A program made the translations under genes and the position numbers. The notes under the pieces were generated by a model. That model did not search any database, was not told the DNA's origin, and was given only the letters and a program-made list of their open reading frames with translations. Below, piece after piece: positions 34,609-37,237 of a DNA stretch of 37,493 nucleotides (its first letter is position 1; each line of letters starts with the position of its first letter). The DNA is taken from NCBI GenBank assembly GCA_017470935.1, contig JAFUXG010000019.1, positions 1 to 37,493 on the forward strand, read 5' to 3'. Origin of the DNA: Lachnospiraceae bacterium. GTDB taxonomy: Bacteria > Bacillota > Clostridia > Lachnospirales > Lachnospiraceae.

Positions 34609-34627
34609 TGTTAATAATTCTTTCAAG

Positions 34628-34673
34628 CATCACAAAAGCCCCAGTGAATTCTCACCGGGGCTATAATCAGCCG
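34628..34673 (-). terminator. Direct repeat A / terminator after the RNase H-like gene
   Basis: On the minus strand AGCCCCGGTGA pairs with TCACTGGGGCT (one G-U) across a 4-nt loop and is followed by TTTTG. The 46-bp sequence recurs at 36544-36589 with five differences and in the same orientation. Confidence 0.85.
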
Positions 34674-34729
34674 TAGTTCATATGTACTGCGTGCCAGCGG
34701 CACACGTTTAGCACTGACTGCCGCCGACA

Positions 34730-36067
34730 TTAGTCGGATACCATGTCAGCAAAGGATGTAGACCGAGCCTTGCGCCCCGCTTGTTCGCTTTGCCGCTTCT
34801 CATCAAACAATTGTTTTATATCATCAAGCTCCTTTTCAAGTCCGGCTACCTTTTTCTTTAGTTCATTATATTCATTACACTGCCAAATAATCTTTTTCAT
34901 AACAGATGCGGGCACATCAATGAAGGCTCTCTCTCTTCCTATTGCATCTGCAACAGTGTTATCCTCTCTATTAATGGCTTTCACCACAACACTTTTGAAT
35001 TGCTTTGCAAGATATTGATTAGTTATATTCAGATACCATCTGTCCTTAGCCGCGTCATTATCTGTATATATAATAACATCATCATGAAAATTATTATTGT
35101 AAGCAAGCTTAAAAAGAACCGTACTTATAGCCTCAATAGCTGTACGATTGGGACTGCTTGTGTCGGTAAACAGGCAAGCATTTTTCATACATATATTGGC
35201 ACAATTAATCTCCTTTTCAGAATTCAAAAAACCTCTACAAATAACATAACTATAGCTTGCCTGCTTATTGCCTGCTTTGTAATCCCAATTTTTTGCAGGA
35301 TTATCTCTAATCGACTCATCAATAAAAGCAGTCATGCAGCTATGCCTTCCGGCAATTGCCCTGATAGCATTTTTACCTGAAACTGCTGCCGTTTTGGTCC
35401 CTTTATCATTTATTAAATTAGTAACACACCGGCAGGGAGCATACCCCATGTTCTCTATCTTATTAATTGATACAGCCATGAGCCTTCTTCCCATACAGTA
35501 CCGGCAACCGGCAATATGGTATTTCTTACCTGTATTTGTAATATATATATTGCGATCCTCTTCAGTAACAATCGTATATTCTGTATCAGATAGTGCCCGT
35601 TCCATAACCCAATGTATTGTGTGGCTTAATAGCTGTCTTACATTAGCTTCATCATCCAGTATCTTTATTAAATCAATTCTGCCACCATCATGTTCGTTAA
35701 ACCTGAACTGCCTGACAAATTCAGACTCCCAACAAGCCATTATACGAAGCAGCCTATCAACATCATTCTGTATAGATTGATCAACAATTTCCGGAGCAGA
35801 TATAGAGTACTCCACATACTGCCTATAAACCACTTTGCCCTTATTCACCAGCTTACTACACTCCGACATTGTCGCCACATTACCGGCTAATTGATGGTAT
35901 ACTTTGATTGCACGATTTTGCAGATCATTTCTTACTGCAAGCTTTTTTTCAAATGCTTGTGGAACAACTTTAGCTTTAGCCACCTCCGGATACCTTCTAT
36001 ATGCATCTAATATAGCAGCGTAATCCTTTGATTTATTATTATATGTTCTTTTCTCTGTATTTTCCAT
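34730..36067 (-). CDS. RNase H-fold protein with His/Cys metal motif and coiled coil
   Basis: I do not recognise this 445-residue protein as a named family. Residues 1-170 are helical and lack known motifs. Residues 184-214 hold H184, C188, C191, C212 and C214 in YHIAGCRYCMGRR and GYAPCRC, which resembles the Ada-like zinc-binding fold. Residues 245-380 look like an RNase H domain of the RVT_3 type: D250 (AFIDES), E312 (TAIEAIS), D336 (IIYTDND) and D374 (REDNTVADAIG) match the DEDD positions. Residues 399-425 form a coiled coil. AAAGGAG precedes the ATG. A basic 64-residue protein is encoded 90 nt upstream. It may act on RNA-DNA hybrids, but this is inferred. Confidence 0.8.
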   Translation of the reverse strand: MENTEKRTYNNKSKDYAAILDAYRRYPEVAKAKVVPQAFEKKLAVRNDLQNRAIKVYHQLAGNVATMSECSKLVNKGKVVYRQYVEYSISAPEIVDQSIQNDVDRLLRIMACWESEFVRQFRFNEHDGGRIDLIKILDDEANVRQLLSHTIHWVMERALSDTEYTIVTEEDRNIYITNTGKKYHIAGCRYCMGRRLMAVSINKIENMGYAPCRCVTNLINDKGTKTAAVSGKNAIRAIAGRHSCMTAFIDESIRDNPAKNWDYKAGNKQASYSYVICRGFLNSEKEINCANICMKNACLFTDTSSPNRTAIEAISTVLFKLAYNNNFHDDVIIYTDNDAAKDRWYLNITNQYLAKQFKSVVVKAINREDNTVADAIGRERAFIDVPASVMKKIIWQCNEYNELKKKVAGLEKELDDIKQLFDEKRQSEQAGRKARSTSFADMVSD

Positions 36068-36100
36068 AGTTCATCTCCTTTATGATTCAATCACATCCAT

Positions 36101-36127
36101 GCAGAAGATTTTGCGACATGCTTCTGC
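36101..36127. other. Hairpin between the small ORF and the RNase H-like gene
   Basis: GCAGAAG and CTTCTGC pair across a 13-nt loop in the 90-nt spacer. No T-run follows, so it is not an obvious terminator; it may affect coupling or mRNA stability. Confidence 0.45.
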
Positions 36128-36157
36128 TAAATATTTAACTTTGTTTAACATTATCTT

Positions 36158-36352
36158 TCATCTCATGGTCTTTTTTGTAATATTGCCATCTCCATTTTTA
36201 CCTTTTTCAGATTTATCATTATCAATATTAGCGGATTTATTATATTGTAAATCAGAAATAACCCTTGCTTTAAGAGGTTCATTCATTTTCATCCTCCAAT
36301 TCTGTTTTTCCTCAAAATACATTTTTATTTGATTAATCAATCTTCCCGCCAT
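36158..36352 (-). CDS. Small basic protein upstream of the RNase H-like gene
   Basis: The 64-residue product starts MAGRLINQIKMYFEEKQNWR after a strong GGAGG, 9 nt before the ATG. It is hydrophilic, with a Lys/Asp/Asn-rich tail. A second in-frame ATG at codon 23 (36286) is also preceded by GGAGG, 7 nt upstream, and would give a 42-residue form. I do not recognise a domain. It is the first gene of a likely two-gene operon with the RNase H-like protein. Its strong start sites are the main reason to call it real. Confidence 0.65.
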   Translation of the reverse strand: MAGRLINQIKMYFEEKQNWRMKMNEPLKARVISDLQYNKSANIDNDKSEKGKNGDGNITKKTMR

Positions 36353-36708: not shown

Positions 36709-36978
36709 TCAGTTATCGTCATAATGCCCTTTACAGTGGGAAATGTATATACGTCCATCATCCAAGTGGTATACAAGACGGTCTTTCTCATTTATACGTC
36801 TGCTGAATTCTCCTTGGAGATTCCCTTTTAGCGGTTCTGGATCTCCAATTCCATGCATTGCACCGTTTCTTTCTATGTCCTTTATTAACTGATTTATACG
36901 CTTAAGAGTTTTTTTATCTTGTGTCTGCCAGTACAGATAATCATCCCACGCATCATCAGACCAAACCTTTTCACTCAT
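36709..36978 (-). CDS. yoeB: YoeB-family toxin (Txe/YoeB)
   Basis: YoeB toxins are ribosome-dependent mRNA interferases. The 89-residue protein keeps the family body: WSDDAWDDYLYWQTQDKKTLKRIN, then FSRRINEKDRLVYHL and a C-terminal HCKGHYDDN with the conserved H-Y. The glutamate, arginine and C-terminal histidine positions are visible. The ATG overlaps the antitoxin end by 8 nt, the normal TA arrangement. Confidence 0.94.
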   Translation of the reverse strand: MSEKVWSDDAWDDYLYWQTQDKKTLKRINQLIKDIERNGAMHGIGDPEPLKGNLQGEFSRRINEKDRLVYHLDDGRIYISHCKGHYDDN

Positions 36979-37237
36979 CCATATCCTCGATCAACTCATG
37001 CACAGTCCCTTTACCCGCACGAAGTTCATTGACTGATTTTAATACATACTCTTGGTTTTTTGCGCTAAAGAACGGATCTTCCTGCTTAATTTCAAATGGG
37101 ATTCTCTTCTCACGCAAAACGGTCTTAACATAAATATTGATTGCAGCAGACGATGTAAGACCAACAGAGGAACAAAAATTATCAAAATCCAATTTATCAT
37201 GCTCATCAACACGAGCTGTAAGTGTAGATAATGCCAT
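36971..37237 (-). CDS. RelB/DinJ-family antitoxin
   Basis: The 88-residue protein has a ribbon-helix-helix N-terminus (TLTARVDEHDKLDFDNFCSSVGLTSSAAINIYVKTVL) that binds operator DNA. The C-terminal part would wrap the toxin. It neutralises the YoeB-like product and should autoregulate the operon. AAAGGAG precedes the ATG. RelB/DinJ-type antitoxins are usually paired with RelE/YafQ toxins, so the YoeB partnering is a mild mix-and-match. Confidence 0.9.
   Translation of the reverse strand: MALSTLTARVDEHDKLDFDNFCSSVGLTSSAAINIYVKTVLREKRIPFEIKQEDPFFSAKNQEYVLKSVNELRAGKGTVHELIEDMDE

Follow-up and report, generated by a model that had tools for sequence, protein, structure and literature searches.

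A candidate accessory RNase H of an unnamed family in Lachnospiraceae

The DNA analyzed here (the window) is a stretch of 37,493 nucleotides from a Lachnospiraceae bacterium (JAFUXG010000019.1), and corresponds to one complete contig (C14); the draft genome measures 3.06 Mb in 75 contigs and is 78% complete. An earlier note, made from the sequence of this stretch, had proposed that positions 34730 to 36352 hold a two-gene module, the larger product of which combines an RNase H fold with a small His-Cys motif. We could confirm that the gene for an RNase H-fold protein at this locus is real. The gene and the parts of its product (P0001) are as follows:

34730..36067, minus strand: gene of P0001, the 445-residue RNase H-fold protein
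P0001 residues ~14-159: helical N-terminus
P0001 residues 184-214: H-C-C-C-C module, a putative zinc module
P0001 residues ~242-384: RNase H fold with D250, E312, D336 and D374
P0001 residues 387-443: C-terminal helix

The predicted structure of P0001 contains the RNase H fold, and its sequence provides all four carboxylates of the D-E-D-D set. Together with the conservation described below, this model bears out the assignment of D250, E312, D336 and D374 to such a fold. In the libraries and open-licence papers searched, we found no existing name or description for the P0001 family. The family had been called unrecognised, and indeed no family of Pfam, NCBIfam or PADLOC was reached. Pfam returned a single match below threshold (RVT_3, 13.7 bits; cut-off 21.6) and listed neither the Ada zinc domain (PF02805) nor DUF3800 for P0001 up to E 10. 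NCBIfam returned no match and PADLOC 0 families up to E 0.1. In PHROGs, phrog_14556 (unknown function) matched residues 93-213, a stretch that spans the zinc module, at 1.6e-5, and another match reached 0.13. A sequence search of the PDB with P0001 gave no match; a profile of eight family sequences gave three weak ones, the best of which was Rv2228c (E 0.076).

The likeness to RVT_3 (PF13456) suggested by the earlier note amounts to a hint. The last motif aligns at residues 352-376 of P0001 and one relative scores 20.0 bits, but all four family members scanned stay below the cut-off, nor was significance reached in a comparison of profiles with six RNase H proteins that the RVT_3 model had picked out. 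In the window's own genome the RVT_3 test gave no match at E 0.001. P0001 shares 20% identity with the type 1 enzyme 4e19 (Halobacterium RNase H1) and 17% with 3hst (N-terminal domain of Rv2228c). Unlike these type 1 enzymes, its family has FIDES, FVDES or FIDET as first motif, and P0001 adds the helical N-terminus, the putative zinc module and the C-terminal helix. We consider it highly improbable that the gene is a retroelement relic, that is, an RNase H domain split off from a reverse transcriptase.

Relatives were sought in whole genomes and genome contigs, with each draw being a sample. We rejected the assumption that every search match is a relative, since most matches lie over the zinc stretch, some with its flank, and leave the RNase H part uncovered. 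Such zinc-stretch-only matches made up 3 of 5, 30 of 34, 53 of 57, 46 of 47 and 5 of 11 genomes in individual searches, and 36 of 40 loci in another; they were left out of every family count. In a class-level draw, the zinc stretch only was matched apart from the window (46 of 341 genomes). With records met twice counted once (L035/L006, L036/L002, L037/L008), the family comprises 13 distinct loci in 12 of the sampled genomes: the window, G023, G236, L034, G355, G624, G161, G726, G724, G1078, G1082, G1083-long and G1083-short. The distribution is patchy within Lachnospiraceae: all G-numbered hosts share the family label of the window genome, and L034 is labelled Lachnospiraceae. The gene in G161 is broken, with the N- and C-terminal pieces in separate open reading frames (ORFs), which leaves 12 intact proteins. 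In G1083 (C1 1-140000; L205-L209, L215, L216), a stretch with both the long and the short form is doubled at a distance of 90.2 kb, and each form was counted once. The two copies share 30-mers across 9.8 kb, and a sampled test over the longer stretch found no single constant offset; this doubling could be either a true duplication or an assembly artefact.

The small motif at residues 184-214 is supported, with H184, C188, C191, C212 and C214 identical in all eight long proteins and absent from all four short ones. Many Clostridia proteins contain an H-C-C-C module that resembles this motif in [YF]H-x3-C and in PC or AC near the end. P0001 differs by an extra cysteine (191), by C-x-C instead of C-x2-C, and by position, as 17 of 18 other proteins inspected have the module close to their C-terminus. 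One of three such proteins scanned appears Ada-like by a PF02805 match below threshold (17.2 vs 23 bits).

Across the 12 intact proteins D250, E251, D336, R367, N370, A373 and D374 are invariant. At position 312, G624, G1083-long and G1078 have T, N or S instead of E; the other nine proteins retain all four acids. In the tree these three form a clade (98/97), the short form groups at 100/99 and the window protein pairs with that of G023 (97/98). An acid at position 307 occurs in seven of the 12 proteins, namely the three that lack E312 and the four short ones, and is absent from the other five. The short form carries acids at 307 and 312, the window clade at 312 only, and the E312-less clade at 307 only. 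Loss of E312 from all three intact members of one clade, two of which adjoin Rep_3 and ParA genes, and the XRE-type genes that scans of 10 kb showed at 4 of 13 loci would fit a regulator that binds nucleic acids, has a degenerate nuclease fold and is linked to plasmid copy control or partition. We regard such a regulator as unlikely, given that the window protein retains all four acids and that the acid at 307 might substitute for E312.

Neighbouring genes were classified by inspection within about 10 kb, and the resulting numbers are raw counts without a chance baseline. Rep_3 and ParA genes occur at G726, G1083-long and G1078 (3 of 13 loci), and type I restriction genes at G624, G724 and G1083-short (3 of 13), with SMODS and SLATT genes slightly farther away at G624. 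One locus (G355) contains a reverse transcriptase (RT)-Cas1 fusion and a 13-repeat array of clustered regularly interspaced short palindromic repeats (CRISPR) within 6 kb. Toxin-antitoxin genes are found at G1082 (Phd/ParE) and in the window (YoeB/RelB), HNH at G236 and RhuM at G023. At L034 and G161, where few neighbours were profile-scanned and the upstream DNA of L034 measures 617 bp, we saw no restriction, CRISPR or Rep_3 class.

The restriction and CRISPR neighbours could point to a role in defence, in which an RNase H-fold nuclease becomes part of such systems and, for example, clears RNA bound to complementary DNA during spacer acquisition by RT-Cas1. A precedent is DUF3800, which PMC12669027 describes as an RNase H-fold nuclease that is accessory in some CRISPR loci. 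The defence role raised in the earlier note is possible in that four of 13 loci have restriction or CRISPR genes nearby, but PADLOC returned no match, three loci sit beside Rep_3/ParA, no partner is constant across loci, and the proximity counts are raw. We rate this explanation as doubtful. RT-Cas1 was rejected as a general partner: in the 8 of 12 host genomes searched, it is present at full length in one; in five more, the top matches are limited to the RT part, with an additional Cas1-part match in G161.

Two further observations concern these neighbourhoods. The G355 region (L108, 11333-17175) encodes, beside the fusion and the array, a 748-residue protein without clear family. A related protein of 188-201 residues is encoded beside three RNase H genes (L104 8360-8926, L206 10801-11370, L210 6359-6964), and Pfam returned no match for the L104 copy.

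Our tentative preference is that P0001 represents an accessory type-1-like RNase H of an unnamed family on mobile or defence-associated DNA in Lachnospiraceae. This reading is based on the modelled fold, the conserved D-E-D-D set, the patchy distribution and the mixed neighbours, and the interpretation given in the earlier note is partly supported overall. An extra RNase H would travel with such DNA, and its predicted role may be either replicon upkeep or defence. By description, not by sequence, it can be likened to RnhP, which PMC9719913 and PMC10601692 present as the RNase HI of plasmid pBS32 of Bacillus subtilis, likewise an additional RNase H carried by a mobile replicon. Several points weigh against this assignment. 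Sequence profiles reach no RNase H family at significance, cleavage of RNA-DNA hybrids by the window protein is likely as a prediction only, the catalytic Glu is missing from one clade, and the neighbour counts have no baseline. Searches of a plasmid collection (72,556 records), of a phage collection (50,697 records, queried with long forms) and of IMG/VR yielded no relative, so that the word "mobile" is based on the neighbouring genes. In a circularity check, the two ends of the 20-kb Rep_3 contig of G1078 did not overlap. If correct, the assignment extends the accessory gene set of Lachnospiraceae by an unnamed RNase H branch that has extra domains of its own and several members of which are located beside plasmid-type replication genes or restriction/CRISPR genes. 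One clade has naturally lost the catalytic Glu, which makes it a clean test case for the strictness of the RNase H active site and for whether such proteins serve replicon upkeep or defence.

The earlier note saw no partner enzyme, and none is visible in the window. In the three nearest relatives (L034, G236, G023), however, a gene of 318-319 residues lies directly downstream of the RNase H gene, with an overlap of 4 nt in L034. These partners are mutually related (one pair: 25% identity, E 3e-36), and their profile matches an RNase_T exonuclease (49 bits) of the window's genome over residues 1-149 with 94% probability. In the profile alignment the exonuclease D-x-E start is changed to E-x-E, D-x-R and D-x-V, which suggests that the partner is DnaQ-like and probably non-catalytic. 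The predicted model of the DnaQ-like part is low in confidence, a further point against our preferred assignment, and a PDB sequence search with the partner gave two weak matches. No relative of the L034 partner was found in the DNA of the other nine loci or the window. In the tree the window protein and the three partner-bearing proteins group at 91/91, and at 99/96 once G355 (long branch) is added. Because the window gene falls inside the partner-bearing group, partner loss is the most economical interpretation: the most likely ancestor of the window copy is a gene that would have acted beside this DnaQ-like partner, which was lost later. It is improbable, in our estimate, that this is a mobile-element RNase H family with the catalytic Glu shifted along its helix, in which the window clade and a dead DnaQ-like partner formed a two-protein system for cutting hybrids.

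The remaining features around the window gene are these:

34621..34680: 60-nt direct repeat, downstream copy; read on the minus strand, a GC-rich hairpin just past the RNase H gene
36158..36352, minus strand: P0002, a 64-residue basic ORF 90 bp upstream of P0001
36537..36596: upstream copy of the repeat, between P0002 and the YoeB gene
36709..36978, minus strand: YoeB-like toxin gene (PF06769, 113.3 bits)
36971..37237, minus strand: RelB-like antitoxin gene (PF04221, 44.9 bits)

The Pfam matches upstream substantiate the toxin-antitoxin genes that had been noted beside the locus. The strong start signals described for P0002 are also apparent by eye, as both ORFs have good ribosome-binding sites (AAAGGAG, GGAGG). 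Scored for codon use with 21 other window genes as training set, P0002 reaches 0.27 bits per codon, above 86 of 87 ORFs of 50-90 residues in the first 32 kb, and is probably coding by this measure. The proposal of a two-gene module in which the small ORF always precedes the RNase H gene did not hold: tblastn with P0002 against the DNA of the 12 other loci gave nothing significant (best E 7.1), with short upstream DNA at L034 and G1082 (361 bp). Promoter-like sites in the region showed no excess (12 vs 12.9 in shuffles). In an empty-site comparison, the peptidase gene downstream had no full-length relative in any of 25 other genomes of the genus. The two repeat copies, which flank both ORFs, are 87% identical. 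Their 32-nt core occurs in the whole assembly at these two sites only (≤3 mismatches), and of 216 loci compared, just the six from the window contig contain it. Each copy forms a stable hairpin on the minus strand (z -3.7 and -5.1), and the repeat could be a duplicated terminator or an insertion mark.
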